Positions 10,117-31,443 of a DNA stretch of 33,453 bases are shown in pieces (the first letter of the stretch is position 1; the number at the start of each line of letters is the position of its first letter). The DNA comes from Candidatus Dadabacteria bacterium (GTDB taxonomy: Bacteria; Desulfobacterota_D; UBA1144; Nemesobacterales; Nemesobacteraceae): NCBI GenBank assembly GCA_022826905.1, contig JAJDUA010000059.1, positions 1 to 33,453 on the forward strand, written 5' to 3'. The position numbers were made by a program, and so were the translations under genes. Under the pieces are notes generated by a model. That model saw only the letters and a program-made list of their open reading frames with translations. It searched no databases and had not been told where the DNA came from.

Positions 10117-11163
10117 ATGGGTGAAAAAATAAGTTTCGGGCTTACCGCTCCCCTGCCGGGAAAACCGGTTACGGAACTCGTGGACTTCGCCGTCCACTGC
10201 GAGGAGGCCGGTTTTGACGCCGTGTGGTTTCCAGACCACATACTGTTCATGGCTAAAAAACTGACTCCCGAAGTATGGTCGGTAATCACGGCCGCGGCGG
10301 TAAAAACGGACAAAATCCGCCTTGGAGCCATAGGTGACCCTCACAGATCCCATCCCGCGATGTTCGCCCACAGACTAGCGACCATAGATAACCTCTCCGG
10401 GGGAAGAGTGTTCAGCTGCCTTGGGTACGGGGAAAAAATGAATCTTGATTACTACGGCATAAGCTGGAACAGGCCTCTTGCGCGTCTTCGGGAATCCGTG
10501 CCGCTTATGAGGCGGCTTTGGGCCGGGGAAACGGTAACTTTCGAGGGGGAATTCTTCTCTCTAAGCGAAGCCGAAGTAAGGGTAAGCCCAGTTAACGGAA
10601 AAGATGTTCCCGTATACATAGCCGCTACCGGACCGAAGGCCCTGGGGGTCGCAGGCGCACTCGGAGATGGCTGGGTAACAAACGCAATGCCCACATGGGT
10701 TTTTTCGAGCAAACTCGCCGAAGTGGAAAAATCCATGGGTGAGAACGCCGCTCCGGCAGAGAACTTTGAGAAGTGCATATATATCTTCGTATCCATTGCC
10801 AAGGACAGGGACACGGCTTACGAGACTCTTGACAGAATAAAGCACGCGATAATCTGGCCCGACGTGATCGAGGAAGCCGGGTACGATCTAAAAATAGACC
10901 CTAGGTACAAGGGGCTTTCCTACACAAGCATAATGCCAAACGACCAAGACATGCTGACCAGATTCCGCCAGATGGGAGAAACGTACTATACCCAAGAAAT
11001 ACTGTCTGATTTCGTGATTTACGGAACCGCCAGCGACGCGATAAAAAGGTTTGAGGAATACATAAAAGCAGGTGTCACCCACTTCATAATCAGGGACTTC
11101 AGTCCCGACCTTGAATACTCATTCGATATGCTCGCAGGGGAAGTGACTGGTTACTTCAGGTGA
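10117..11163 (+). CDS. LLM-class (luciferase-like) F420- or flavin-dependent oxidoreductase
   Basis: This 348-residue TIM-barrel protein of the bacterial luciferase-like superfamily starts KISFGLTAPLPGKP. It carries AGFDAVWFPDHI near residue 32, DNLSGGRVFSCLGYGEKMN near residue 92 and VPVYIAATGPKALGVAGALGDGWVTN near residue 165. These blocks match the F420-dependent subgroup (methylene-H4MPT reductase and F420-dependent glucose-6-phosphate dehydrogenase relatives). The substrate cannot be told from sequence. It starts 2 bp after fbp, with GAGGAA inside the fbp end as ribosome-binding site. A sugar-phosphate or C1 substrate would fit the neighbourhood, but that is inference. cofE at 22426-23202 supports the presence of F420 in the cell. 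FMN use is the alternative. Confidence 0.85.
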   Translation: MGEKISFGLTAPLPGKPVTELVDFAVHCEEAGFDAVWFPDHILFMAKKLTPEVWSVITAAAVKTDKIRLGAIGDPHRSHPAMFAHRLATIDNLSGGRVFSCLGYGEKMNLDYYGISWNRPLARLRESVPLMRRLWAGETVTFEGEFFSLSEAEVRVSPVNGKDVPVYIAATGPKALGVAGALGDGWVTNAMPTWVFSSKLAEVEKSMGENAAPAENFEKCIYIFVSIAKDRDTAYETLDRIKHAIIWPDVIEEAGYDLKIDPRYKGLSYTSIMPNDQDMLTRFRQMGETYYTQEILSDFVIYGTASDAIKRFEEYIKAGVTHFIIRDFSPDLEYSFDMLAGEVTGYFR

Positions 11164-11482
11164 GCCCCGCAACTTCTCTTCTCCTCTGTAGCACAACATA
11201 TTTTCGCTTTATATTTTCTCTGAAATCCTCAGGAAGACTTTCCCATTCCATCACATCAACAGAGAACAGAAGATCGCTTTCTTCAAGAGCTTCTCTGAAA
11301 TCCTCAGTACTATGCGAATCACAATCAAAAACAACAAGGTCCAGATCGGAAAACGCTTCCGCCTTCCGAGTTAGACGGGAACCATAGGCCCATATCTCCT
11401 TTCCAGGAACATGCCGATTGATAATCTTCCTGAGGATTTCCATCTGATCTTTTTCCACATCTATCAGGTTGTCCATACTCAC
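11156..11482 (-). CDS. mntA: MntA-type nucleotidyltransferase antitoxin
   Basis: This 108-residue minimal nucleotidyltransferase has the exact motif GS-x10-D-x-D: G34 S35, then D46 and D48 in YGSRLTRKAEAFSDLDL. In characterised type VII systems MntA transfers AMP onto a tyrosine of the HEPN toxin HepT and so neutralises it. The GTG start at 11482 overlaps the hepT stop (GTGA); an ATG at 11476 is a possible alternative. The gene converges on the LLM gene and overlaps its end by 8 bp. It is too short, and lacks the extra domain, to be an aminoglycoside nucleotidyltransferase. The composition looks more AT-rich than the flanking metabolic genes, consistent with acquisition. Confidence 0.88.
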   Translation of the reverse strand: MSMDNLIDVEKDQMEILRKIINRHVPGKEIWAYGSRLTRKAEAFSDLDLVVFDCDSHSTEDFREALEESDLLFSVDVMEWESLPEDFRENIKRKYVVLQRRREVAGLT

Positions 11483-11901
11483 TCTTCTTCGGTCATGGCT
11501 CTATACATTTCGGAAGCATCCTGAGAAAAGTTTCCTATATACTCGGATACTTTCTCCGCTTTCATTTCGCTGTAATCATGGGAAACCGAACCTCTTAACC
11601 TATTGTAATTCATAAGATGTTCAAGCATCTCCTTGTCTATGAGTCCGGCTTCATGCGCCCTGCGGAAGATGCCTCGGGGTGAATTCGGAATATCAGCTAG
11701 GTTTTCTTCTTCCTGAAGAAATTTCTTCATATGTTTCCATAACGTATCGTAGCAGACTGTAAAACACAATATTACTGAATTCCTCGTCGATTTTCTTTCT
11801 ACTTCGGTAATTTTCTGTTGTTCTTTCGTAAGAAAATATCTATATTGCTCTATAAGGTTATCAATGGATTTTTTCAGTTTCTCGTAGTCAGTCCTGCTCA
11901 T
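11479..11901 (-). CDS. hepT: HepT-like HEPN toxin (HI0074 family)
   Basis: This 140-residue all-helical HEPN protein has the diagnostic R-x4-H-x-Y motif near the C-terminus: R103, H108 and Y110 in RGSVSHDY. In the HepT family R and H form the RNase site, and the tyrosine is the residue AMPylated by MntA. A family relative, HI0074, was first described as a nucleotidyltransferase substrate-binding protein. The ATG at 11901 has a good AAGGGG ribosome-binding site. The toxin gene precedes and overlaps the antitoxin gene, the order known from the Shewanella pair. A 14-bp perfect palindrome about 100 bp upstream (11998-12011) could be an operator. Confidence 0.86.
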   Translation of the reverse strand: MSRTDYEKLKKSIDNLIEQYRYFLTKEQQKITEVERKSTRNSVILCFTVCYDTLWKHMKKFLQEEENLADIPNSPRGIFRRAHEAGLIDKEMLEHLMNYNRLRGSVSHDYSEMKAEKVSEYIGNFSQDASEMYRAMTEEE

Positions 11902-13394: not shown

Positions 13395-14594
13395 CTAGCT
13401 GTCACTGAGAATGGATATCCCTGGAAGGTCGGATCCTCCGAGGAATTCAAAACAGGCCCCGCCCCCGGTTGACACGTGGGTTGCCTCAGAGAACTTGACC
13501 CCGGACTTTTTAAGCGACGCCACACTGTCTCCTCCTCCGAGAACCGTGGTGGCCCCCCTCCATGTGGCAAGCGCAAACGATCTGGCGATGGCGCTTGTGC
13601 CGTTTGAAAAATCGTCCACCTCGAAAAATCCCATGGGACCGTTCCAGAAAACCGTGCCTTCCCCCTTTATATGCGAGGTGAATTTCTCAACCGTCTTCGG
13701 CCCTATGTCAAAAGCCGTCATGTCGTCGGGAATCTCCGCGCCCGTAACCACTACACGCATTTTTCTGCCGCCGGCAACCTCGGCCATTACGTGGTCAACG
13801 GGCAGGAGGATTTTTTCCTTGTAGGTTTCAAGAGCCTCGCGGGCCCAGGGAAGCATCTCCTCCTCAACAGAACACTTTCCGACGCTAATCCCGCGCGCCG
13901 CGAGAAAAGTATAGGCCACTCCACCGCCCACAAGAACCCTGTCCGCCTTTTTTATTATGTTCCGAAGCGCCCCTATCTTGTCCTTTATCTTCATTCCCCC
14001 GACGATGACCACATAGGGTTTTTTGGGGCTTTTTATGAGGCGGCTAAGAAACTTCATTTCATTTCCCACCATGAGGCCTGCGAACTTTTTCTCGAAGTGA
14101 GCGGTCATTCCGTAAGTGGATGCGTGGGCCCTGTGCGAGGTACCGAAAGCTTCATTCACGTAGATGTCGGCCAGAGAGGCCAGTTTCTGGGAGAAATTCG
14201 CATCGTTTTCGGTTTCCTCATGGTGATATCTTAGGTTCTCAAGGAGCATTACTTCGCCGTTTTTGAGTTTCTTAGAGGCGTTTTCGACTTTCCTGCCGAC
14301 AACCGCCCCCGGAAAACGAACCTTGATTCCCAGGAATTCGTTAAGTCTCCCGGCCACCGGAGCCATTGAAAAATCTTCTATCCTGCGTCCTTTCGGTCTT
14401 CCCATGTGGGAAGCCAGGATTACCCGGGCGCCGCATCTGGTAAGGTAATCGATCGTGGGAATAGCGCGCCTTATCCTGTAGTCTTCTGTTATCTTCCCGC
14501 CGTTTACGGGAACGTTGAAATCAACCCTTACGAAAACTCTTTTCCCCTCGTATTCCGAGCAGGGAAGGTCAGTTACAAGAAGCTTTTTCTTCAA
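13395..14594 (-). CDS. pgk: Phosphoglycerate kinase
   Basis: The kinase interconverts 1,3-bisphosphoglycerate plus ADP with 3-phosphoglycerate plus ATP. The 399-residue protein has the N-terminal signature [18 protein letters not shown] at about 18-35 and [10 protein letters not shown] for 3-phosphoglycerate binding. It also has [14 protein letters not shown], and a C-terminal nucleotide-binding GGGDSVA with [11 protein letters not shown]. Length is normal. Its ATG overlaps the stop of gap by 4 bp, so the two are translationally coupled. A short 56-bp gap separates it from the aldolase gene downstream. No anomalies are seen. Confidence 0.97.
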
Positions 14595-15598
14595 AGCTTC
14601 CTCCCGACAAGCTCTACAAGATCAACTACCCTGGAGGTGTATCCGTACTCGTTATCGTACCAGGCAACGACCTTGACCAGATTATCCTCCACCACCGAAG
14701 TCAGCATCGAGTCAAAAGAGGAGGAATGGGTATCTCCCACAAGATCGGAAGAAACGATTTCGTCCTCGACGTAAGCGAGATAACCGCTAAGCGTTCCTTC
14801 AGCCGCTTCCCTGAACTTGGCGTTTACCTCCTCCGCGGAAGTTCCTTTTTCCACCTCGCAGGTAAAATCCACAAGCGAGACGTTGGGCGTAGGCACCCGT
14901 ACGGCCACCGCGGAGAGTTTCCCTTTGAGTTCGGGAAAAACGATCTGTATGGCGTTTGCGGCCCCCGTACTGGTGGGGATAATGGAGAGGGCTGCCGCTC
15001 TCGCCCTTCTTTTATCCTTATGCGGAGTGTCGAGTATTCTCTGATCGTTCGTATAGGAGTGTATCGTGGTCATCTCCCCCCGCCTGATCGAGAAATTTTC
15101 GTGGAGAACCTTGACCAGCAGCCCGAAGCAGTTGGTGGTGCAGGATGCGTTTGAAATCACGTCGTGACCTTCAGGCTCGTAGTCGCGATCATTTATGCCC
15201 ATTACCGTGGTGAAATCCACCTTGCCGCTTGCCGGCGCGGTAATTATTACCTTCTTCACGGTCTCGCCCATGTGTGCCGCGGCGGCCTCGCGGGTTCTGA
15301 AAATGCCGCTTGCCTCCGCCACTATCTGCGCTCCCGTATCGGCCCAAGGAATATTCGCAGGGTCTCTCTCCGAGAACACCCTTATGAACTTTCCATCAAC
15401 TGTTATCCCCTCACCGTCGCACTTTACCTCCCCCGGGTAGCGGCCGAACACCGAATCGTACTTGAAAAGATGGGCCAGGGTTTCGGTGTCTGTAATATCG
15501 TTTATTCCCACGAACTCAAGGCCTTCTCTGCTAAGACCGATTCTTAGCACGTGCCTCCCTATTCTTCCGAAACCGTTTATTCCAACCCTGATAGACAT
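14591..15598 (-). CDS. gap: Glyceraldehyde-3-phosphate dehydrogenase, type I
   Basis: The enzyme converts glyceraldehyde 3-phosphate to 1,3-bisphosphoglycerate. The start chosen is the ATG at 15598, preceded by GGAGG at 7 nt, giving MSIRVGINGFGRIGRHVL. A further in-frame ATG lies 12 codons upstream but has no support. The catalytic Cys153 sits in SNASCTTNC and His180 in IHSYTNDQ. The acidic D34 in GINDITD at the end of the second beta strand suggests a preference for NAD over NADP. The protein has 335 residues, normal for the family. It is first in the gap-pgk-fba operon, with a promoter visible about 50-75 bp upstream. Confidence 0.96.
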   Translation of the reverse strand: MSIRVGINGFGRIGRHVLRIGLSREGLEFVGINDITDTETLAHLFKYDSVFGRYPGEVKCDGEGITVDGKFIRVFSERDPANIPWADTGAQIVAEASGIFRTREAAAAHMGETVKKVIITAPASGKVDFTTVMGINDRDYEPEGHDVISNASCTTNCFGLLVKVLHENFSIRRGEMTTIHSYTNDQRILDTPHKDKRRARAAALSIIPTSTGAANAIQIVFPELKGKLSAVAVRVPTPNVSLVDFTCEVEKGTSAEEVNAKFREAAEGTLSGYLAYVEDEIVSSDLVGDTHSSSFDSMLTSVVEDNLVKVVAWYDNEYGYTSRVVDLVELVGRKL

Positions 15599-15646: not shown

Positions 15647-15673
15647 ATTATACATTCACCCTTCTCTAGTCAA
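15647..15673 (-). promoter_or_regulatory. Predicted sigma-70-type promoter of gap-pgk-fba
   Basis: On the minus strand a -35 box TTGACT (15668-15673) is followed after 15 bp by a perfect -10 box TATAAT (15647-15652), about 48 bp before the gap start codon. The spacer is shorter than the usual 17 bp. A dyad GCATA-AA-TATGC at 15704-15715 lies upstream of the -35 box and could be an operator. Confidence 0.55.
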
Positions 15674-15763: not shown

Positions 15764-15826
15764 TTTCCACCCGGTCTCCAGTAAAGCAAGCCCAGAAAAA
15801 CATTTGCGTAATTGTACCGGATAATC
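15764..15826 (-). repeat. Interspersed repeat copy A, downstream of the RND gene
   Basis: The block begins TTTCCACCCGGTCT (15764-15777) and, after exactly 30 bp, ends GTAATTGTACCGGATAAT (from 15808). The same two end blocks with the same 30-bp spacing occur at 19087-19148. The ends match at 31 of 32 positions, while the 30-bp centres match at only about 12. It lies just beyond the 3' end of the RND transporter gene. I do not recognise the family; the arrangement resembles a short non-autonomous or REP-like dispersed element. Confidence 0.55.
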
Positions 15827-15831
15827 CGATG

Positions 15832-18800
15832 CTAGCCAGTTTGCGGGGAACCGTCAGCCGACACCCATGCTCCTGTCCGTCTGAAATACCGCAACTGCCT
15901 GCCAATATCGTCAAGAACCAGATAAAGACAGGGCACAAGGTAAAGTATGACGAAGGTCGAAAAAACAAGTCCGAATCCCAGGGAAGCCGCCATCGGAGCG
16001 AGAATGCCCGCCTGGCCCTTGTAAACGAACATCAGGGAGAAAAGCCCCGAGAAGGTCGTAAGCGTGGTGAGAACGATAGGGCGGAAACGATACCTGGCGG
16101 AAAATACTATCGCTACCACCTTGCTCGGCATCTTTTTTGCCCTTCGGTTGATAAAATTCAGCAGCAGCAAGCTGTCGTTGACCACTATTCCCAGAAGCGC
16201 GACCATTCCTATTATGGCGGGAAGCGTCATAGGTTCGCCGCGCAGCAGAATCGCTATGACCACTCCCGTAATGCAAAAAGGCAGCACACTCATTATTATA
16301 AGGGGTTGAAAGGTGGAGCGCAGTATGCTTGCGAGGATGAGATAAATGAGAAGTAAAGCCAAAAGCGACGCCTTTTTTATGTCGCTTATAGCCTGAGTAT
16401 ACTGCTCCTCCTCCCCTGCGAACCGAAACGAGTAGCCCGGGTAGTTCTCCAGAAGACTGTCGAGGTGACGCGAAAGATTCGCGGTTACCTCCCTTGAAGT
16501 AGTCGTCTGGTTGTCCACTTCGGCTGTTACGGTGACTGTTCTCCGGAGCTTCTCCCTTCTTATCTCAAGCAGCGTCTTGGACTCCGTTATCTCCGCCACG
16601 GTGCCGATAGGAACCCGCTTCCCGAGAGGGGTCGGGATCTGGTGCGATTTCACCGAGAAAGCACTGGACTCTCCTCTTCCGTATCGCAGATTTATCTCAG
16701 CCTCTTCCTCACCCACTCTGGTCTTCGCGACTGTGAGACCGTCTCCGAGAGCCTTGATTTCCCGCGACACGCTCCACTTGTCAATACCGAACACCCCGGC
16801 TTTTCTCTCGTCTATTTGAACTCTCGCCTCGGGTTTTCCGTAAACAAGATTGCTAGTCGTGGCACTCACCCCCGGCTGACTGCCCAGATACTCCCGGACC
16901 CGGGAAGCTATTTCCATCAGCACCGGTATGTCGTTCCCGCTTATTTTGACGTCCACCGGTTTCCCGATAGGGGGACCCGTTGTCTCGAGGAAATTAACCT
17001 GCTTGGGTCCCGTAACCGTTTCCCCTACCCTGTTTTCCGCAACCCTAGAGAGTTCAACCGCGTTTTCTCTCCTAGCAGAGTAATCCTCGTATTCAACCAG
17101 AACCGTTGCCATGTTGTCTCCCATTGAAAACATATTGTCAGGATCAGACATATCGAGGCCAATCATGGACAACGTGTTCTTCAGGACATGAGGGGGGACG
17201 CTGCGGCGCACGGCTTCCTCCACCCGGGCTACCGAAGCGGCTGTATGCTCCAGACTGGATGAGGGAGGATTCTCAACCCTTACCATTACCTCCTCGATAT
17301 CATGAAGGTAGAACATTACGTTGGGAATCCGGATAAACACAAAGACCGAAACAGCAAAAATAACCGTGAAACATCCTATTACCGCATAGCGGTTTCTAAG
17401 GGCAAACAGAAGCCCCCGCAGATACAGGCCTCTTACGCGCAGAAGCGGCGCGTTTCCGCGAGGAGATCTCGTTGTGCCGTTTGCCGGAAGCCAGTCAGCG
17501 CAGTGAGATGGCATGATCAGCAAGGCTTCGAAAAGTGAGAAGCAAAGAGCGAAGATCGCGACTTTGGGAATTACGGAAAGAAACTGTCCGATGAGCCCCG
17601 TGGCAAGAAGAAGGGGAGTAAACGCCGCGATATTGGTAAGCACAGTCGCAACCACTGGCCAGGCGACTTCTTTTGTCCCTACCACCGCCGCCCTAAGCGG
17701 CTCCATTCCCCTTGATATATACCTCTGGACGTTCTCAACAACGATTATGGCGTCATCCACTACCATTCCCAGCATCATTATAAGACCGAACATGGAGAGG
17801 ACATTCAGCGTTGTGCCGGTCATCTTCATTAATATCGCGGCCCCCAGGAAGGAAACAGGAATCCCCAAGGCGGCTATAAAGGCCGCTTTGCGATCAAGAA
17901 AAAGAGTGAGAAGAATTACTACCAGAACAAACCCCAGACCCCCGCTTTTAAGCATGGTCCGAAGACGACTTTTCACCCAGTGCGACCTGTCAAACGCCAA
18001 GGTTATCTCCACATCTTCGGGAAGCCGGGTTTCGTATTTTTCGGTAAGCTCCCTTATGCGGTCGACGGTATCGAGGATATCAACGTCTTTCTGCTTCTCC
18101 ACCCAGAAAGTAATCGCAGGACGGCCGTTTATCCTCGACCTCAGGTTCTCCCGCTGTTCCCCGAGAGTGACCGTCGCCACATCGCGGAGCAGGACATGTT
18201 TACCCTCAACGCTCCTGGCAACCGGAATATTGAGAAGATCTTCCACAGATCTTATCTTTCCCTCGGTTCTAAGCAGAAAATCAGCACTGCTTCCAGTAAA
18301 ATTCGCCCCGGGAATATCCAGATTTCTCGCGTTGATGGCATTTGAAATCTCCTCAATCCCCAGTCCGAACTGCACCATCTTCGGGTAATCCAGATAGACC
18401 CATATTGCCGGGTCAGGCAGTCCAACTGAAGTCACGTTGTCAATGCCGTCTAAAAGCGCAAGTTTATCCCGCAGTCTTCTGGCGCTACTATAGAGGATAT
18501 CTCTTGATATATCCCCTGAGACCGAAACGCTCACCAGCGGAAAACTCGCCTTTTGCTCTTCCGTTACAGGTTCTTCTGTGTCCTCGGGAAGATCGTCTGC
18601 TATCAGATTGATCTTGGAATCAATCTCCCAGGCGACCCTTCTGGTGTCTTCACCTGGGTAAACCTCAGCCGTAACGCGTGAGAACCCTTCGGAAGAAACG
18701 GATTTTACGATCTTGATGCCGGAGACGTTCTTTATCTGCTGCTCAATTGGAACGCTTACAAGATTCTCAACGTCTTCAGCGGAGGAACCCGGAAAAGACG

Positions 18801-18945
18801 TGGTTACTGTCACCATTTCGAGTTTTACCGACGGGAACAGTTCAAGGGGAAGAGAGAATGAAAACAGAAGCCCTATAAGTATTATGGCTCCCATCAGCAG
18901 GTTCACGAAAAAGGAGTTTCTTACTGAAAAATCGGCGATGTGCAT
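15832..18945 (-). CDS. RND efflux transporter, AcrB/MexB-like inner-membrane pump (HAE family)
   Basis: This 1037-residue proton-driven pump of the resistance-nodulation-division superfamily normally works as a trimer with a periplasmic adaptor and an outer-membrane channel. It shows the standard plan: helix 1 near residues 10-32, a large periplasmic domain, a six-helix bundle, a second periplasmic domain, then a final helix bundle. GMVVDDAIIVVENV (around residues 390-410) carries the paired aspartates used for proton relay. FPGSSAEDVENLVSVPIEQ in the first pore domain is typical. The gene stands alone with no adaptor or TolC gene beside it; an adaptor gene occurs about 6 kb away. The ATG at 18945 has no clear ribosome-binding site. 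The substrate is unknown. Confidence 0.93.
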   Translation of the reverse strand: MHIADFSVRNSFFVNLLMGAIILIGLLFSFSLPLELFPSVKLEMVTVTTSFPGSSAEDVENLVSVPIEQQIKNVSGIKIVKSVSSEGFSRVTAEVYPGEDTRRVAWEIDSKINLIADDLPEDTEEPVTEEQKASFPLVSVSVSGDISRDILYSSARRLRDKLALLDGIDNVTSVGLPDPAIWVYLDYPKMVQFGLGIEEISNAINARNLDIPGANFTGSSADFLLRTEGKIRSVEDLLNIPVARSVEGKHVLLRDVATVTLGEQRENLRSRINGRPAITFWVEKQKDVDILDTVDRIRELTEKYETRLPEDVEITLAFDRSHWVKSRLRTMLKSGGLGFVLVVILLTLFLDRKAAFIAALGIPVSFLGAAILMKMTGTTLNVLSMFGLIMMLGMVVDDAIIVVENVQRYISRGMEPLRAAVVGTKEVAWPVVATVLTNIAAFTPLLLATGLIGQFLSVIPKVAIFALCFSLFEALLIMPSHCADWLPANGTTRSPRGNAPLLRVRGLYLRGLLFALRNRYAVIGCFTVIFAVSVFVFIRIPNVMFYLHDIEEVMVRVENPPSSSLEHTAASVARVEEAVRRSVPPHVLKNTLSMIGLDMSDPDNMFSMGDNMATVLVEYEDYSARRENAVELSRVAENRVGETVTGPKQVNFLETTGPPIGKPVDVKISGNDIPVLMEIASRVREYLGSQPGVSATTSNLVYGKPEARVQIDERKAGVFGIDKWSVSREIKALGDGLTVAKTRVGEEEAEINLRYGRGESSAFSVKSHQIPTPLGKRVPIGTVAEITESKTLLEIRREKLRRTVTVTAEVDNQTTTSREVTANLSRHLDSLLENYPGYSFRFAGEEEQYTQAISDIKKASLLALLLIYLILASILRSTFQPLIIMSVLPFCITGVVIAILLRGEPMTLPAIIGMVALLGIVVNDSLLLLNFINRRAKKMPSKVVAIVFSARYRFRPIVLTTLTTFSGLFSLMFVYKGQAGILAPMAASLGFGLVFSTFVILYLVPCLYLVLDDIGRQLRYFRRTGAWVSADGSPQTG

Positions 18946-19086
18946 AGAGAATCGGTCGACAATTCCTAGTGTGCACCCGATTATGATCCCGAGTGTACGG
19001 GGACTTGATCAGGCGGTATGTCTTTTCGGTATCGGCAGGCTTTCCTCCTGCGGATTTGAAACCTTATCTTGCCTTGTTAAGCGGAG

Positions 19087-19148
19087 TTTCCACCCGGTCT
19101 GCGGCAAACCGCAGCCTCAAAACGCCTCCAGTAATTGTACCAGATAAT
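19087..19148 (-). repeat. Interspersed repeat copy B, upstream of the RND gene
   Basis: TTTCCACCCGGTCT (19087-19100), a 30-bp centre, then GTAATTGTACCAGATAAT. Orientation is the same as copy A at 15764-15826, so the two copies are direct repeats bracketing the RND gene. The centre of this copy holds a six-pair hairpin (19099-19114) that copy A lacks. Confidence 0.55.
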
Positions 19149-19224: not shown

Positions 19225-19255
19225 CCCCCAGGACAAATGTCTGAATTGCCGGGGG
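19225..19255 (+). promoter_or_regulatory. Nested inverted repeat in the argC leader
   Basis: An outer stem CCCCC (19225-19229) pairs with GGGGG (19251-19255). Inside it a smaller dyad GACA-AA-TGTC sits at 19232-19241. It lies about 45 bp before the argC start. It could be a leader hairpin or a regulator site (ArgR boxes look different, being AT-rich), and no T-tract follows, so it is not an obvious terminator. Function unknown. Confidence 0.3.
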
Positions 19256-19297
19256 CGGATTGAGTTTTTCCGATTCCCGTAGTATCGTTTCACCGTG

Positions 19298-20338
19298 ATG
19301 AAAAAGCTTAACGTATGTATTCTGGGAGCAAGCGGCTACACGGGAGCAGAACTCATAAGGCTCCTCAGTGGACACCCCCGGGCCAGCATTTCGCATCTGA
19401 CGGCGTCAAAGCACGCGGGTCGCGCTCTGGCCGAGGTGTTTCCGCACCTTGGAGAAATAGCCGATCTCGAACTCAGCAGTTCGGACCCCTCGCTCATCCC
19501 GGACGATACCGACGTGGTATTCGCCGCGCTTCCTCACGGGGCATCGGCCGAACTCATAGAAGAAATTTATGGGAGAGACGTAAGGATAATTGATCTCGGG
19601 GCGGATTTCCGTCTCAGGGAAGGCACCTACAGGGACTGGTACGGGGATCATCCGTGCGCCCGTCTTCTCGAGGACGCCGTCTACGGAATCCCTGAACTGC
19701 ACGCGGAACGGATATCGGAAACAAAACTGGTGGCAAACCCCGGGTGCTATCCCACCTCTTCGATCCTTCCGCTCGCGCCGCTTCTTGAAAACGGCATGGT
19801 AGAGACAGAAGGAATCATTATTGATTCGAAATCCGGGGCTTCGGGAGCAGGAAGGAACCCTTCGCTTGACCTTCATTTCTGCGAGGTCTCCGAAGGAATG
19901 AAAGCCTACAAGGTGGGCGAACACCGCCATGCCCCTGAAATAGAGCAGGGACTCTCGGATTTTCTGGGCAGCAATGTGGAAGTCGCTTTCACACCGCACC
20001 TTGTACCGATAAACAGGGGGATACTCTCGACAATATACGTAAATCTCTCGGGCAGCCATGAAACCGGAGAACTGCTCGACGCTCTCGGGGAATTCTACAA
20101 GAACTCGCCCTTCCTCAGGATTCTTCCCGAGGGAGCCTTTCCGAACACCTCCTGCGTCAGGGGTTCAAACTTCTGTGACATAGGCGTAAGGTCTAACCCA
20201 GAGAAAAAAACCGCGATAATTGTCTGTGCCATAGACAATCTGGTAAAGGGAGCCTCCGGCCAAGCAATACAGAACATGAACATCATGCTTGACCTTCCCG
20301 AGAGCTTGGGACTTGACTCCGTCCCGCTTTATCCCTAA
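19298..20338 (+). CDS. argC: N-acetyl-gamma-glutamyl-phosphate reductase
   Basis: ArgC reduces N-acetylglutamyl phosphate to the semialdehyde in arginine synthesis, using NADPH. The 346-residue protein opens with the nucleotide-binding LGASGYTGAELIRLL. It has the catalytic Cys150 in ANPGCYPTS, then DSKSGASGAGR and the C-terminal HLVPINRGILSTIYV. A GTG codon immediately precedes the ATG at 19298; I chose the ATG, giving MKKLNVCILGASG. No strong ribosome-binding site is seen. No other arginine gene is nearby, so argC is scattered in this genome. Confidence 0.94.
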   Translation: MKKLNVCILGASGYTGAELIRLLSGHPRASISHLTASKHAGRALAEVFPHLGEIADLELSSSDPSLIPDDTDVVFAALPHGASAELIEEIYGRDVRIIDLGADFRLREGTYRDWYGDHPCARLLEDAVYGIPELHAERISETKLVANPGCYPTSSILPLAPLLENGMVETEGIIIDSKSGASGAGRNPSLDLHFCEVSEGMKAYKVGEHRHAPEIEQGLSDFLGSNVEVAFTPHLVPINRGILSTIYVNLSGSHETGELLDALGEFYKNSPFLRILPEGAFPNTSCVRGSNFCDIGVRSNPEKKTAIIVCAIDNLVKGASGQAIQNMNIMLDLPESLGLDSVPLYP

Positions 20339-24902: not shown

Positions 24903-26042
24903 TCAGTCGACAACCTTTACCGGCTGACCGGGAAGGAGGCCGAAGTTTCCCTCGGTTATGATTCTTGAAGCCGGGGGAAGCGAATCAAAGGATATATAGG
25001 CCGAATTATCGTCTACCCACATCGGCACCACTTTAGCCTTGAGAACTTCTCCGTTTTTTTCAACCAGCACGAAAGAGAAGTTTCCCCCGCTGTCGGACAA
25101 AACAGCCGTCTTGGGAATTCTGACGACATTATCAAGCGTCTGCACAGGTATTTTCACGGAAACCATTTCCCCGGGCCACCATTTTACCGAGGGATCGGAT
25201 ATGGCAATCTCGATATCGTAGGTGCCCGAGAAATCATCGGAGCCCGGACTCACGCCGTCAACTTCGCCCACGACGGTTTCCACCGTTCCGTCTCTTGTGA
25301 GTGATACTTCCAGAACATCCCCCCGCTTGACGCTTCTGGCAACGGACACATCCACACCGGCTATGACTTTCCTGCCGCTTAGATTAACGACCTTGGCTAC
25401 CACATCCCCGTTTCTTGTCTCCTGTCCGATGTCGGGAACGATTTCAACAATCTGACCTTGGATAGGGGAGCGGATTTTGAGGTTTTCATAATTCCATTTG
25501 GCCCTTTTGTAAGAAGCTTCAAGGGCCTTTGCGCCGGCCGAGGCGGTTTCAAGAAGGTTTCGCGACGCATCGGTCTCATCCTCAGAGACTATTCCCTTCT
25601 CAAAAAGAGCCACGTTCCTGCGGTATACCCTTTCAGCCTCGGCAAGCTTCCCTTTGGCGGACTCTAAATTGTACTTCGCCTCGTCAAGACGCGTTTCCAC
25701 GCGGTAATCGTAGAGTTCGAGGATAATTCCGTCCTTTTCGATTTCCTGACCTCGGCCGGAATCTATCCGCTTTACCCATCCCGAAACGGTCGTTCGGACC
25801 AAGACGGTCTGCTTGCCACGGACTCTTCCGAGAACTTCGGTGTAGACTGAACCTGAGGACGCAACAGGCGTCATCACCTTTATGGGCCTGTAAACATTAT
25901 CTTGAGAGTGCTTCTGCACGCTCGATTCCCTTTCTTGAAGAAACCTAGCGTACAGAAGAAAAAGAACCAAAAGGAAACCAAGAAATATTAAAACCAGAGT
26001 TAACCAGCCCTTCATTCTTCTTTCCCTGAACCAAGATCTCAT
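24903..26042 (-). CDS. RND efflux periplasmic adaptor (membrane fusion protein, HlyD/AcrA type)
   Basis: This adaptor joins an RND pump to an outer-membrane channel. The chosen ATG at 26042 follows GGTGG at 8 nt and yields a charged N-terminus. One strong signal/anchor helix follows (WLTLVLIFLGFLLVLFLLYARF, about residues 12-33). A lipoyl-like barrel comes next (VLVRTTVSGWVKRIDSGRGQEIEKD), then an alpha-hairpin coiled coil (ETRLDEAKYNLESAKGKLAE and on, about 115-175). The second lipoyl half IRSPIQGQIVEIVPDIGQ and beta-barrel strands follow. Upstream ATG 26081 and downstream ATG 26015 (with AGGGA) are alternatives. There is no lipobox cysteine. No pump gene is adjacent; the RND gene at 15832-18945 is a candidate partner. 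Confidence 0.88.
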   Translation of the reverse strand: MRSWFRERRMKGWLTLVLIFLGFLLVLFLLYARFLQERESSVQKHSQDNVYRPIKVMTPVASSGSVYTEVLGRVRGKQTVLVRTTVSGWVKRIDSGRGQEIEKDGIILELYDYRVETRLDEAKYNLESAKGKLAEAERVYRRNVALFEKGIVSEDETDASRNLLETASAGAKALEASYKRAKWNYENLKIRSPIQGQIVEIVPDIGQETRNGDVVAKVVNLSGRKVIAGVDVSVARSVKRGDVLEVSLTRDGTVETVVGEVDGVSPGSDDFSGTYDIEIAISDPSVKWWPGEMVSVKIPVQTLDNVVRIPKTAVLSDSGGNFSFVLVEKNGEVLKAKVVPMWVDDNSAYISFDSLPPASRIITEGNFGLLPGQPVKVVD

Positions 26043-26117
26043 CTGTTTTTCCACCCACAAAAGCTTCAATAAAAAAGACATTCATAACAATATTGAGAAT
26101 CTGAGGATTTAGCAACA

Positions 26118-26131
26118 ACCGGCAAACCGGT
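26118..26131. promoter_or_regulatory. Inverted repeat ACCGG-CAAA-CCGGT upstream of the HU gene promoter
   Basis: A five-pair dyad with a 4-base loop lies between the adaptor start and the -35 box of the HU-like gene, about 9 bp upstream of that box. Its position would suit a regulator site. It has no T-tract. Confidence 0.3.
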
Positions 26132-26139
26132 AGAACAGA

Positions 26140-26168
26140 TTGACTTTTGGCCAGAATACCCCGATAAT
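26140..26168 (+). promoter_or_regulatory. Predicted sigma-70-type promoter of the HU-like gene
   Basis: TTGACT at 26140-26145, a 17-bp spacer, then GATAAT at 26163-26168: five of six bases match consensus in each box, with ideal spacing. The start codon follows about 28 bp later. This is one of the best promoters in the window, fitting a highly expressed nucleoid protein. Confidence 0.7.
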
Positions 26169-26195
26169 TATTAAGAGATTTTAAGGAGGATGTTA

Positions 26196-26486
26196 GTGAA
26201 CGGAAAACCTTTAACAAAGTCCCAGCTTTCAAGCAGCTTGGCAGAGAAGGCGGGAATAACCAAGGCGACAGCCAAAACCGTTATTGATGCTATAGCGTCA
26301 ATTGCATGTGAAGAGGTAAAGGAAAAAGGAGAATTCACGATTCCTGGAATCGGCAAACTGGTTATCAGCAATCGCAGTGCCAGAATGGGGAGAAATCCCG
26401 CCACCGGTGAAGAGATCAGCATACCTGCAAGAAAGGTCCTGAAGTTCCGCGTGGCGAAAGCCTGCAAGGATTCTGTGCTAGGTTAG
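26196..26486 (+). CDS. hup: HU/IHF-family DNA-binding protein
   Basis: This is a nucleoid-associated histone-like protein. The start chosen is GTG at 26196, because AAGGAGG then sits 6 nt upstream. The ATG at 26190 would overlap that ribosome-binding site. The protein (about 96 residues) reads LTKSQLSSSLAEKAGITKAT, has a helical N-terminal half, and then GIGKLVISNRSARMGRNPATGEEI, the HU beta-arm signature in which RNP(A/Q)TG inserts into the DNA minor groove. It ends FRVAKACKDSVLG, as in HU. It has its own promoter and is divergent from the adaptor gene. Whether it is HU or an IHF-type subunit cannot be decided by eye. Confidence 0.93.
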   Translation: MNGKPLTKSQLSSSLAEKAGITKATAKTVIDAIASIACEEVKEKGEFTIPGIGKLVISNRSARMGRNPATGEEISIPARKVLKFRVAKACKDSVLG

Positions 26487-26505
26487 AGCTGTCTCCACAC
26501 TCTAC

Positions 26506-27801
26506 CTAGTTGATGCCGCCTCTTAGCGACCAGTTGAGAATTTCTACTGGATGCACAACTTTGGTTTTGGAATCTGAACCGAGCAGTCCCTTGCGGATCT
26601 GTATCATGCATCCGGGATTACCGACGGCCAGATAATCGGCTCCGGTTTTCCCTATTTCGCTTACTTTACCTGAAAGAAGTTTGGCGGACATTTCCGTCTG
26701 CACGATATTGTATATCCCGGCGCTTCCGCAGCAGTGATCCGACCGCTGCATTTCGATAAATTCCAGTCCCGGGATGCTTCTAAGAAGTTCTCTCGGAGCA
26801 GACCGTATACCCTGTCCATGAACAATATGGCACGCGTCCTGGTAAGTGATCTTTACATCAAGAGGGTGCAGCGCCGCCCCTATTTCCGTATCCGAAAGAA
26901 ATTCCATGACGTCCACGGTTTTCGCTGAAAGCTGCGCCGCGGCTTCGGAGTAAACCGGATCCCCGCGCAGGATTTCGGCGTATTCCTTCATAGTGGAACC
27001 GCATCCGGCAGAATTAACAACTACGGCATCTACTTTTAAGGTAGTGAAAAGGGCCACCAGTTTTCTTGCGAACTCCCTTCCCTCCTCAAGCCTTCCCGAG
27101 TGAACAGAAAGGGCCCCGCAACACCCTTGGTTCTTGGGAACAAAAACTTCGCAACCGCTTGCGCGAAGCACTTCGACCGTTGCCCTGTTTATTTCCGGGA
27201 AGAAGACCCCCTGAACGCACCCGCTCAGAAGGGCAACTTTCTTTTTCCTCTCTCCAATTGCCGGATAAAAAGCCGAAAGAGTCTCCCCGAAAGCGGAACT
27301 TACCTCGGGCAGCATGTGGAACATGGAAGAAGCCGAGAGACTTATTCTGTTAAGAAGCCACGGCGGGAAAACCCTCTTCAGGCCAAGTGTTTTTATCAGG
27401 TAGATAAACGGCAGAAGAAGCCTCAACTTTCGCGGATAGGGGAAAATTTTGAAAATGAAAGCCCTGAGGATCTTATCCCCCAGTCCCCTCTTGAACCTCC
27501 TTTCGATCTGTCCCCTCGACATCTCTATCAGGCTTCCATACTTGACTCCAGAGGGACACGCGGTCTCGCAGGCAAGACACCCTAGACACAGGTCAAGATG
27601 CTTTACAAGCGACTCGCCCATCGGGATTCTTCCCTCCTCCGCGGCTTTTATCAGATGGATTCTTCCCCTCGGAGAATCAAGCTCGTTTCCGGTCGCCAGG
27701 TAGGTAGGGCAGGATGAAAGGCAAAAACCGCAATGAACGCAGTCCTGTATTATCTTCCTGCTCGGCCGGTCCGTATTGTCAAAAGCTGTCTCAAGCGACA
27801 T
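26506..27801 (-). CDS. glcF: Glycolate oxidase iron-sulfur subunit
   Basis: GlcF carries electrons from the GlcD/GlcE flavoproteins to the quinone pool. The ATG at 27801 follows GGAGGG and gives 431 residues; an in-frame extension of 42 codons upstream would overlap the preceding gene and has no family match. The first ferredoxin-type cluster ligands are C21, C24, C27 and C31 (CVHCGFCLSSCP) and the second C72, C75, C78 and C82 (CLGCLACETACPSG). Two CCG cysteine-rich blocks follow (NQGCCGALSVHSG and SDHCCGSAGIYN), typical of heterodisulfide reductase B-like domains. It is the last gene of the operon. Its start overlaps the DUF3891 gene end by 11 bp. Confidence 0.93.
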   Translation of the reverse strand: MSLETAFDNTDRPSRKIIQDCVHCGFCLSSCPTYLATGNELDSPRGRIHLIKAAEEGRIPMGESLVKHLDLCLGCLACETACPSGVKYGSLIEMSRGQIERRFKRGLGDKILRAFIFKIFPYPRKLRLLLPFIYLIKTLGLKRVFPPWLLNRISLSASSMFHMLPEVSSAFGETLSAFYPAIGERKKKVALLSGCVQGVFFPEINRATVEVLRASGCEVFVPKNQGCCGALSVHSGRLEEGREFARKLVALFTTLKVDAVVVNSAGCGSTMKEYAEILRGDPVYSEAAAQLSAKTVDVMEFLSDTEIGAALHPLDVKITYQDACHIVHGQGIRSAPRELLRSIPGLEFIEMQRSDHCCGSAGIYNIVQTEMSAKLLSGKVSEIGKTGADYLAVGNPGCMIQIRKGLLGSDSKTKVVHPVEILNWSLRGGIN

Positions 27802-28585
27802 TGCGTCCCTCCGCTCCCGAAGAAATCGAAAAATCAAAAGTCTCAAAACCCGCACTATGGAAAGCTTCTTTGAGCTCCGCTTGGGCACCAAACGATTTTC
27901 CCACAAGTTTTCTGCCGGATATATCAAAGTGAAGAGAGTCCCGAGAAAAAGGATTTGGGCAGACCGTATAGTTAAGCCCGTCTTCCGATGACAGGGCTAT
28001 CTCCACCGTGTCTCCAAGGTAATTAATCGGAACGTTCGGAATAGTGACTGATTTTGATCCGCGGCAAAGAGCGAGAGATATCATGTCGCCCACCTGAAGA
28101 AACCTGAGGTTAGTCCGGATATCAGCGGAAAGGCGCTCGTCTGGACTCCCTTCCCCTGCCCCGACCCCGAGGCTCCGGTGCAGTAATTCCCTGATTTTCT
28201 CTCTAAGCGAAACGGCCGCCTTGTTGTCCGGATCTCTGGATATAGTCCTCTCATTAAGCTCGGAGAAGTGAAGCGCTATTAAAGCGCAGGCATATGGATG
28301 CTCGCCGACATGTTTTTCGAAACACTCAGACCAGATCTCAAGCTGGCTTTCAGGTCGCATCTCCATGAAATTTCTCGGATAGCCGTTTTTCGGGTTCAGA
28401 TCGGCTGCGGAGTCCGTTTTCTCCCATCCGCAGTCATGTTCCTTTATCGCCAGCATCACTTCGTCTGTGGGAGTGATAGTCTCGAAATCCTCATTGCCCC
28501 AGAAATTCATTATCTTCGAAGAAAGAAAAGCGTGGCTTGGCTGCGTTATGAGAGTCCATCCCTCACCAGATTCCCTTCTTATCAT
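27791..28585 (-). CDS. DUF3891 family protein
   Basis: This 264-residue protein of unknown function opens MIRRESGEGWTLITQPSHA, matching the DUF3891 signature. It continues with AIKEHDCGWEKTD, where the invariant His-Asp lies, and then ACALIALHFSEL. The conserved His/Asp residues suggest a metal site, but no activity has been shown to my knowledge. It starts 11 bp after glcE and overlaps glcF by 11 bp, so it is translated as part of the glycolate oxidase operon. That is unusual, since glcD, glcE and glcF are normally contiguous. A role in glycolate metabolism is inference from context only. Confidence 0.8.
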   Translation of the reverse strand: MIRRESGEGWTLITQPSHAFLSSKIMNFWGNEDFETITPTDEVMLAIKEHDCGWEKTDSAADLNPKNGYPRNFMEMRPESQLEIWSECFEKHVGEHPYACALIALHFSELNERTISRDPDNKAAVSLREKIRELLHRSLGVGAGEGSPDERLSADIRTNLRFLQVGDMISLALCRGSKSVTIPNVPINYLGDTVEIALSSEDGLNYTVCPNPFSRDSLHFDISGRKLVGKSFGAQAELKEAFHSAGFETFDFSISSGAEGRNVA

Positions 28586-28596
28586 GATCCTTATCC

Positions 28597-29943
28597 TCAG
28601 TCTGCATCGAATATTTTTTCGCCGGGCAGAATGTTTCCCGGATCAAAACGCCGTTTGATGTTCTTCATAAGAAAAAGCGCATCCCCGAAATCCCCCCACG
28701 CTTTTACCTTCTCCCTGAGTTCGCAACGGACATCGGAGAACATGATACGGCCCCCGAGCGAATCGGCAAGATTTTCAAGAAAACCCGCCGCTATGACCGC
28801 CTCTTCACCCTCACCGCTTACCGAAACAAGCGCAACCCCCCTGGCGGGCCTTGCAAGACTGCGCACTGTGACTCCCGAGAGCGCTGGATCGCTCTCAATA
28901 TCGGAGAGAATCTCGATTGAAGCAGTTACGGGCAGAGTCAGCTTCGAGGAAAAACTTGCCGCGGAAGAAAACGGGAATTCCCTTGCTGAATCCCATAACT
29001 CCCGTGAATCCTCATCGCCCATCTCAACGAAAGAGGCAGGTTTTCCAGAGGTTATCTCCCTCACCTGTTTTATCTGCTCGACCACCGCCTCTTCGAAGCT
29101 GTCGAACCTGAGCAGGATGCTTCTTTTAGCCCCCGGTGCGACTGAAAATTCCGAAGAGAGTCTCTCGTCAAGTATTTCAAAACATGTGGGAACTACATCC
29201 GCAGCAAGTATCGCCCTAGCCGCGCGGGAACAGGAAACATGGTCGTCAAAACCCAGAACCAGGGTTCTTGAGAAGGGTTGGCGGGGGTATAACCTGAAAG
29301 TCGCTTCTACCAAGACGCACAGGGTTCCGAGCGAACCTGTCATAAGCTTGGGAATATCATAACCCGCTACGTTTTTAACTACTTTTCCTCCCAAGTTTAT
29401 GATCTCACCGTCAGCTCTCACGGCCCTGACTCCCAGGACAAGCTCTCTGCACGTACCGTATCTGGTACTCATTGGACCGCAAAGATTTGTCGACACAAGT
29501 CCTCCCACGGTGGCCCCGGAGCTAAGACCCGGCGGATCCACGGGAAAAAGCTGGTTTTCACGCCCGACCGCATTCTGGAACTCCCTTACCTCCATCCCGC
29601 ATTGGACCGTGGAAACCATGTCGGAAGGCTCGTGAAACAGGAGCTTGTCAAGACGCTTGAGCGAGAGCGCCGCACCCGCCGCACGGACCGGGCTGCCGAG
29701 TGAAAGCTTGGTGCCCCCCGCAAAAGGAAAAACACGAATGCCTTTCTGCGAAGCGAACCCGAGGACCCGGGATATCTCCTCGACGGTTTCGGGATAGAGA
29801 ATTACTTCTGGAGAGAATCCGAATTCCGGAACACTCGAGTCCGTACCACCGGAACCGGGAACATGGAAATTTGAAACCATTCTGGAAAGTTCTGCTATGT
29901 GAGACATTTGTTTTAAACGGTCGGATCTTAGGGCCCTGAACAC
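28597..29943 (-). CDS. glcE: Glycolate oxidase FAD-binding subunit
   Basis: GlcE is the second flavin-domain subunit of glycolate oxidase. The 448-residue protein has the PCMH-type FAD domain: PFAGGTKLSLGSPVR near residue 73, SSGATVGGLVSTNLCGP near residue 143, and VVKNVAGYDIPKLMTGSLGTL near residue 186. The C-terminus RRFDPGNILPGEKI is the family end. The GTG at 29943 is the longest start; ATG 29907 is an alternative, and neither has a clear ribosome-binding site. It lies 12 bp behind glcD, so coupling is likely. At 448 residues it is longer than E. coli GlcE (about 350). Confidence 0.88.
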   Translation of the reverse strand: MFRALRSDRLKQMSHIAELSRMVSNFHVPGSGGTDSSVPEFGFSPEVILYPETVEEISRVLGFASQKGIRVFPFAGGTKLSLGSPVRAAGAALSLKRLDKLLFHEPSDMVSTVQCGMEVREFQNAVGRENQLFPVDPPGLSSGATVGGLVSTNLCGPMSTRYGTCRELVLGVRAVRADGEIINLGGKVVKNVAGYDIPKLMTGSLGTLCVLVEATFRLYPRQPFSRTLVLGFDDHVSCSRAARAILAADVVPTCFEILDERLSSEFSVAPGAKRSILLRFDSFEEAVVEQIKQVREITSGKPASFVEMGDEDSRELWDSAREFPFSSAASFSSKLTLPVTASIEILSDIESDPALSGVTVRSLARPARGVALVSVSGEGEEAVIAAGFLENLADSLGGRIMFSDVRCELREKVKAWGDFGDALFLMKNIKRRFDPGNILPGEKIFDAD

Positions 29944-29955
29944 GGCCCGGCTTCG

Positions 29956-31443
29956 CTAGAAAAGCTCTCCCATTCCCTTTGGCGCGTGATTATGGGAACC
30001 ATGTTTTCCCATCCCGGGCTCAACGCACGTCCTAGGAGTCGGGAACACCTTGCCGGGATTGCAGAGTCCTTCTTCGTCAAAAGCGCACCGCACCAGATTC
30101 ATCGTGTCTATTTCCTGTTCGCTGAACATAAGCGAAAGAAACCTTTTCTTGTCAAACCCAACACCGTGCTCTCCCGTAATGCTGCCGCCGACGTCAACGC
30201 ATACCCTGAGAATTTCCCCGGAAAGTTCCTCGGCTTTCTCGGATTCTCCCTCAACTTCGGGATCATAAAGCACCAGCGGATGAAGATTCCCGTCCCCCGC
30301 ATGAAAGACGTTTGCAACCCGAAGACCGTACCTTCTGCCGAGCTCCCCTATCTCTCCAAGCACCCTGGCCAAGCTGCTCCTGGGAATCACACCATCCTGA
30401 ACATAGTATCCGGGACTTATCTTCCCCATGGCGGCAAACGCACTTTTACGCCCCTTCCAGAAAAGCTGTCTCTCGTTTTCATCCGCCGCCAGCTTTATTT
30501 CAATCGCGCCGTTTTCCCTAAGTATCCGGCTTACGGCAGGAACCTGCGCGGTAACCTCCGCGCCGGGTCCATCAAGCTCCACGAGAAGAATAGCTCCCGC
30601 GTCCCTAGGATATCCGGCGCCCACAGTGGTTTCCACAGCGTTTATGCTGAGATTGTCCATGATTTCCATTCCCGCGGGGATAACCCCGGAAGAAATGATT
30701 GCGGAAACCGACGCCCCGGCGTCTTCAATTCTCTCAAAGGAAGCGAGAAGAGTCTTAACCATCTGAGGTTTTTTTATTATTCTCAAAAAGACCTTGGTCA
30801 CTATGCCCAAAAGCCCCTCGCTTCCGACCACAAGCGAAAGAAGATCATATCCTAGACTCTCCGGGGAAGGACCCCCAAGCATGACCACTGCTCCGTCGGG
30901 CAGAACCATCTCCACTCCGAGCACATGGTTGGTCGTGACTCCATACTTAAGACAATGAACTCCACCTGAATTCTCGGCGACATTGCCTCCTATTGTGCAC
31001 ACGATCTGGCTTGAAGGATCGGGGGCGTAGTAAAATCCCTCGGCGCTCACGGCATCGGTTACGGAAATATTGACCACTCCGGGCTCGACCACAACGACGC
31101 GGTTCGGGATATCCACTTCAAGAATCCTGTTCATCCTCGAAAGCGATATGACTATTCCCTCGCGACTGGGAAGAGCGCCTCCGGACAGCCCGGTTCCCGC
31201 CCCTCTCGGAACAAAAGGAATTTTCTCGCGATTGCAAAGCCCTACGACTTGGGAAACCTCCTCCGCAGTTGAAGGCAGAACAACGAAAAGAGGCTTTACC
31301 CTGTATCCCGTAAGCCCGTCGCTTTCATAAGCGATCAGCTCATCCTCGGCTGATATAACCGCCCCGGCACCTAGGATTCCCACAAGCTCCGAGGCGATAC
31401 GGGATTTCCATCTGCCGGTTCTTTTTACAGCTTGCGTGTCCAT
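29956..31443 (-). CDS. glcD: Glycolate oxidase catalytic FAD subunit
   Basis: GlcD oxidises glycolate (or D-lactate-like 2-hydroxy acids) to glyoxylate using FAD. The 495-residue protein has the FAD-binding type 4 domain with PFVPRGAGTGLSGGALP near residue 75 and CTIGGNVAENSGGVHCLKYG near residue 148. The C-terminal substrate domain has VANVFHAGDGNLHPLVLYD and GGSITGEHGVG. It leads the operon glcD-glcE-DUF3891-glcF and is divergent from the tsaC gene across 42 bp, where a TATACT on the minus strand may be its -10 box. The exact hydroxy-acid substrate is not decided by sequence; D-lactate dehydrogenases share these motifs. Confidence 0.92.
   Translation of the reverse strand: MDTQAVKRTGRWKSRIASELVGILGAGAVISAEDELIAYESDGLTGYRVKPLFVVLPSTAEEVSQVVGLCNREKIPFVPRGAGTGLSGGALPSREGIVISLSRMNRILEVDIPNRVVVVEPGVVNISVTDAVSAEGFYYAPDPSSQIVCTIGGNVAENSGGVHCLKYGVTTNHVLGVEMVLPDGAVVMLGGPSPESLGYDLLSLVVGSEGLLGIVTKVFLRIIKKPQMVKTLLASFERIEDAGASVSAIISSGVIPAGMEIMDNLSINAVETTVGAGYPRDAGAILLVELDGPGAEVTAQVPAVSRILRENGAIEIKLAADENERQLFWKGRKSAFAAMGKISPGYYVQDGVIPRSSLARVLGEIGELGRRYGLRVANVFHAGDGNLHPLVLYDPEVEGESEKAEELSGEILRVCVDVGGSITGEHGVGFDKKRFLSLMFSEQEIDTMNLVRCAFDEEGLCNPGKVFPTPRTCVEPGMGKHGSHNHAPKGMGELF

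Follow-up and report, generated by a model that had tools for sequence, protein, structure and literature searches.

Two copies of a 62-bp element with conserved ends flank a relocated RND transporter gene in Dadabacteria

In the 33,453-nucleotide stretch of Dadabacteria DNA analysed here (the window), an RND transporter gene stands between gap and argC, with a short direct repeat at each of its borders (Table 1). The repeats have nearly identical ends and diverged centres, an arrangement that raises the question of how the transporter gene came to lie in this place and what the two repeats have to do with it. We find that the RND gene is a newcomer between argC and gap that arrived by duplication and by loss from its own neighbourhood, with no sign of a mobile system. 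Elsewhere in the window (positions 11156-11901), a HepT-like/NTase substrate-binding protein gene (11479-11901; Pfam PF08780, E 4e-16) overlaps a 108-aa ORF (11156-11482); the two are possibly an MNT/HEPN toxin-antitoxin-like pair.

Table 1. Repeats, genes and signals at the RND locus, in window coordinates.
Feature	Position	Strand	Basis or remark
gap (GAPDH), left neighbour of RND	14591..15598	-	ATG at 15598
Promoter-like TTGACT/TATAAT of gap, between copy A and gap	15647..15673	-	Sequence and alignment; spacer 15
Copy A of the 62-bp element, between RND stop and gap	15764..15825	-	In 11 of 14 genus genomes
RND transporter gene (ACR_tran), relocated duplicate	15832..18945	-	Pfam PF00873, E 1.2e-186; relative follows MFP in sister lineages
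Putative decayed MFP 3' end in RND leader	18946..19036	-	nhmmer with MFP 3' ends and pairwise alignments
Leader between copy B and MFP relic	19037..19086	-	Sequence and alignments
Second 62-bp repeat (copy B), between RND and the divergent argC	19087..19148	-	In all 13 genus genomes with the site assembled
argC, right neighbour of RND; adjoins gap in sister lineages	19310..20338	+	
Membrane fusion protein (MFP) gene, HlyD_D23, ancestral upstream partner of RND	24903..26081	-	Now about 6 kb from RND

A repeat search of the window recovers the two direct repeats at a spacing of 3323 bp and with 71% identity overall. The left block, TTTCCACCCGGTCT, is identical between copy A and copy B at 14 of 14 positions, and the right block, GTAATTGTACC[G/A]GATAAT, at 17 of 18. 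Taken together, the end blocks agree at 31 of 32 positions, and the 30-bp centre has diverged. On the RND strand, the element reads ATTATCCGGTACAATTAC-N30-AGACCGGGTGGAAA. This is the same pair, in the same orientation, that an earlier reading made from the letters of the window (the sequence-only reading) had described as bracketing the RND gene. With up to three mismatches allowed, the right block is expected 0.01 times by chance in the window and is found twice.

The position of each copy relative to the neighbouring start codons varies little across the genus. Copy A lies just past the RND stop codon, with 6 bp in between, and 166 bp upstream of the gap ATG (164-169 bp across the genus). 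Copy B precedes the RND start by 141 bp (138-147 bp across the genus, except for 83 bp in G008). The 3' end of RND is altered in this genome and in G006: about 45 bp that separate RND from copy A in the other species are missing (window positions 15826-15880), so that the reading frame now stops right at copy A.

Within the window, a perfect central hairpin is found only in copy B (CTGCGG..CCGCAG on the RND strand), as the sequence-only reading had noted. This distinction does not extend to the genus, in which the A copies of several relatives have a central helix of their own, for example GTTTCCAG/CTGGAAAT in G013. In most genomes, moreover, the centre of A aligns with the centre of B better than shuffled sequences do (p 0.001-0.12), which indicates that the repeats derive from the duplication of a single 62-bp sequence, with ends that have remained similar. 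On these alignments, the whole 62 bp is best described as a diverged duplication with constrained ends.

To define the distribution of the element, a covariance model built from 21 copies was run on 61 genomes (14 of the genus and 47 others), with stricter filters under which some weak matches are lost. Its matches are restricted to the RND-flanking sites of the 14 genus genomes, and nothing convincing was found elsewhere in these genomes or in the 47 others; Dadabacteria outside the genus carry no copies. No third full copy was found in this genome by gapped pattern, BLAST or the covariance model. Copy B is present in every genus genome with its site assembled. Copy A was deleted in three genomes (G001, G004 and G005) with three different deletion end points, which indicates that A is dispensable. 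Further copies, on which the sequence-only reading had in part staked its case, are lacking, but the relatives that keep the RND gene in this place keep the repeats as well, B always and A mostly.

Two sets of further matches were set aside. The 13-mer CCGGTANAATTAC alone has extra matches in six genomes, apparently all at a single orthologous position; in the five genomes read, this is the stop codon of a membrane protease-like gene, and we regard these matches as a coding coincidence. Three matches on viral contigs, all in one protein-coding stretch, are likewise attributed to coincidence. In G010, the interval between copy A and gap is interrupted, about 25 bp from A, by the insertion of a 417-aa TnpB/OrfB-like gene (judged from sequence; L114:2960-4213, minus strand). 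The named relatives whose RND proteins are 76-94% identical are MAGs of Dadabacteria which, judged by their isolate names, are probably largely sponge-derived.

The order of genes around the element differs between this genus and its relatives. G014, of the sister genus, and G020, which is more distant, share the order MFP-RND-(aminotransferase, F420 ligase, GDPD, aminotransferase)-argC-gap, in which argC adjoins gap. RND also directly follows MFP in G024, G027 and G015. This genus has MFP-(aminotransferase, F420 ligase, GDPD, aminotransferase)-argC-RND-gap instead. No RND-free or reshuffled states were seen within the genus. The MFP gene itself is preceded by glcDEF-like genes, namely two for FAD-binding oxidases and one with an iron-sulphur CCG domain (window positions 24903-31443), an arrangement common to the window, G014 and G020.

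Both traces of a duplication followed by loss are present: what remains of the lost copy, at the ancestral site (G012 and G013), and a piece of the former neighbour, at the new one (the MFP tail, clear in G013). In G012, a single-contig genome, and in G013, a relic of about 100 bp from the RND 5' end stands directly after MFP, besides the intact RND gene between argC and gap. The two relics span 33 aa with 67-70% identity (E 5e-9 and 3e-8). At the new site, a profile of the MFP 3' end matches the RND leaders (nhmmer), with E 1.4e-5 in G013 and more weakly in others; in the window's own leader the match is marginal, taking in the last ~35 nt only (E 0.045). The presence of MFP tail and RND start at both places implies duplication, not cut-and-paste. 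Comparison of these relics and gene orders shows the RND gene as a duplicate in the argC-gap junction, the original at MFP having been lost.

One genome, G009, has RND sequence at both sites. A 5' part stands at MFP, and a 3' part stands with copy A at gap, both at contig ends. The 5' part has about 65% identity to the genus and the 3' part about 77%, a difference that hints at two separate genes. In the same genome, argC was found only as a 37-aa C-terminal piece (L132:1799-1909, 54% identity), about 2.3 kb from the end of the neighbouring aminotransferase gene, and it may have decayed or been lost there.

This history resembles the tandem duplication-random loss of gene order, in which a gene shifts relative to a block of neighbours and leaves, at the joins, remnants of its lost copy and of a disrupted neighbouring gene. 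It differs in that the duplication itself is not seen here, and an insertion with target duplication would look the same. The literature that we found on this model concerns mitochondrial gene order.

Since the repeats occur only at the two edges of the relocated segment, the economical view is that they were made in the relocation, from one intergenic sequence. We therefore lean towards a history in which one intergenic element was doubled as the RND gene relocated and was then retained as a bipartite cis-element. Ancestrally, a single short element would have lain in the argC-gap intergenic region, with A and B as its two descendants. On the stem of the genus, RND with an MFP tail in front was copied from the MFP-RND operon into the argC-gap junction, which would have doubled the element, and the copy at MFP was lost later. 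The simplest route would be a tandem duplication that took in everything from the MFP tail through the argC-gap region, after which the first RND and the second block were lost; the same end state would result from an insertion duplicating its target. After the doubling, both copies would have kept two conserved blocks 30 bp apart around a drifting centre, and B would most likely serve the expression of RND, cut off from its old operon, or that of argC.

Before the relocation, the element was presumably single and intergenic. Its action is presumably on transcription or as a leader hairpin. The sequence-only reading had pointed to relatives without RND in this place as those in which a single copy should be sought. 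G014 and G020 are such relatives, and their argC-gap regions hold no trace of the element, even with filters off, so the single-copy ancestor is one that we infer only. Between RND and copy A, no remnant of a second argC-side block was found.

Sequence conservation indicates that the element has been maintained. Over the genus, mean pairwise identity is 86-89% in the end blocks of B and 86% in those of A, compared with 77% at fourfold-degenerate RND sites and 60% in the centre of A. In pairs with G002, the most distant genome, the corresponding values are 79-80%, 82-88%, 54% and 53%. Copy B forms an island of conservation between poorer flanks. End blocks that are conserved above fourfold-degenerate sites indicate that selection keeps both blocks in both copies. 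Thus, selection on the end blocks, rather than an unusual mode of insertion, explains why the ends are conserved and the centre is free. The sequence-only reading had thought this pattern unlike a simple duplication; the pattern is real, but with centres that align above shuffles, selection on the ends suffices to account for it.

What is being maintained can be narrowed down in part. The element is most likely cis-regulatory, at copy B for RND or argC, and promoter, operator and RNA hairpin are not distinguishable from sequence comparison. The conservation fits either gene as the one served and either a DNA or an RNA reading.

Possibly, the element forms a hairpin in the RND transcript, with B in the 5' leader and A in the 3' tail, acting as a leader or stability element or in protein binding. 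The conserved ends would then be a basal stem (CCGGU/ACCGG), and the free centre a variable apical hairpin. The 8-bp basal stem is paired in 94% of cells on the RND strand, compared with 23-52% in slid controls, and the changes are mostly of the G-U kind, which fits the RND strand only. Apical helices are found in most copies, and those in A of G013, G002 and G009 pair with different sequences. However, covariation does not rise beyond shuffles (the score is reached by 105 of 500, with one both-sided change), folding z-scores for B reach only about -0.2 to -2.3 and those for A are mixed, the RNAalifold energy is only -1.71, and the basal stem is damaged in A of G009. The element shares with the cis-regulatory RNA motifs of Rfam a possible stem with a variable apical part in a leader, but it matches none of the 4227 Rfam families beyond weak chance matches.

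A tentative case can also be made for a promoter with an operator. The left block would be a captured promoter with a -10-like TANAAT on the RND strand, the right block would be an operator or leader site, and B would drive RND. The third base of TANAAT in B takes all four letters between invariant neighbours, and a relocated RND gene needs a new promoter. Furthermore, B was never lost in the 13 genomes examined, whereas A was. Against this, no good -35 was found, the TANAAT hexamer is not called on the RND strand by a consensus scan, and the right block, which is just as strongly conserved, is not explained by a -10. The block is present in copy A as well, although gap has a promoter-like site of its own. 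This site is also kept in the genomes in which A is deleted, and it was not called by the consensus promoter scan. On the other side of the locus, the stretch before argC (GAGTTTTTCCGATTCCCGTAGTATCGTTTCAC; window positions 19255-19310) ranks with the best-conserved segments between argC and RND and is perhaps an argC promoter or operator.

It is conceivable, if doubtful in its full extent, that the relocation doubled a genus-specific cis-element of a kind not described before, either a hairpin RNA or a bipartite operator, which wired the orphaned pump gene into argC-gap regulation, with one copy kept on each side.

We regard it as very improbable that RND moved as a cassette between two sites for site-specific recombination, with the element as such a site, attC-like or of another type. 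As in integrons, a single gene is bracketed by sites with conserved, mutually complementary ends and a variable centre, with one copy at each border of the relocated gene. Unlike integron cassettes, however, the RND locus has no integrase, no array, no variation in content and no copies elsewhere, the old RND site included. No integron integrase (TIGR02249) scored over the cut-off in the 14 genomes, most of which are incomplete assemblies, with G012 as a single contig; only two Xer-sized tyrosine recombinases are found per genome. The lack of RND-free or reshuffled states in the genus also speaks against a cassette, and part of the MFP gene travelled with RND, as expected of an ordinary duplication. 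The attC boxes at the ends of such sites are R' GTTRRRY and R'' RYYYAAC; the element ends ATTATCCGGTACAATTAC and AGACCGGGTGGAAA, compared by eye with this consensus, do not fit them. Where the sequence-only reading suspected footprints of a cassette-like insertion of the pump, it was right in part: the RND gene is a relocated duplicate, and the repeats mark its two borders. A mobile cassette finds no such backing: the integrase search gave nothing over the cut-off, no transposase was found at the repeat borders in the window, and the MFP fragment was carried along.

A chance similarity, or a neutral duplication without function, would agree with there being two copies only and with the deletion of A in three genomes, but it is hardly credible given ends that are more conserved in both copies than synonymous sites across the genus and the low chance expectation of the right block alone. 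A dispersed family of short repeats, which the sequence-only reading had also proposed, can be rejected: like REP and MITE sequences, the element is short, partly palindromic and intergenic, but such families need many copies at unrelated places, and the element occupies two positions only, both at RND and orthologous within the genus.

The RND gene thus provides a well-resolved case, in an uncultured phylum, of an efflux gene that was duplicated out of its operon and then lost there, and relics mark both the old and the new site. Selection has kept a short element at the joins of the relocated segment. The case illustrates that no mobile element is needed to bring a transporter under new control, and the 14 genomes offer a compact natural series in which such a change in the control of a transporter may be tested.
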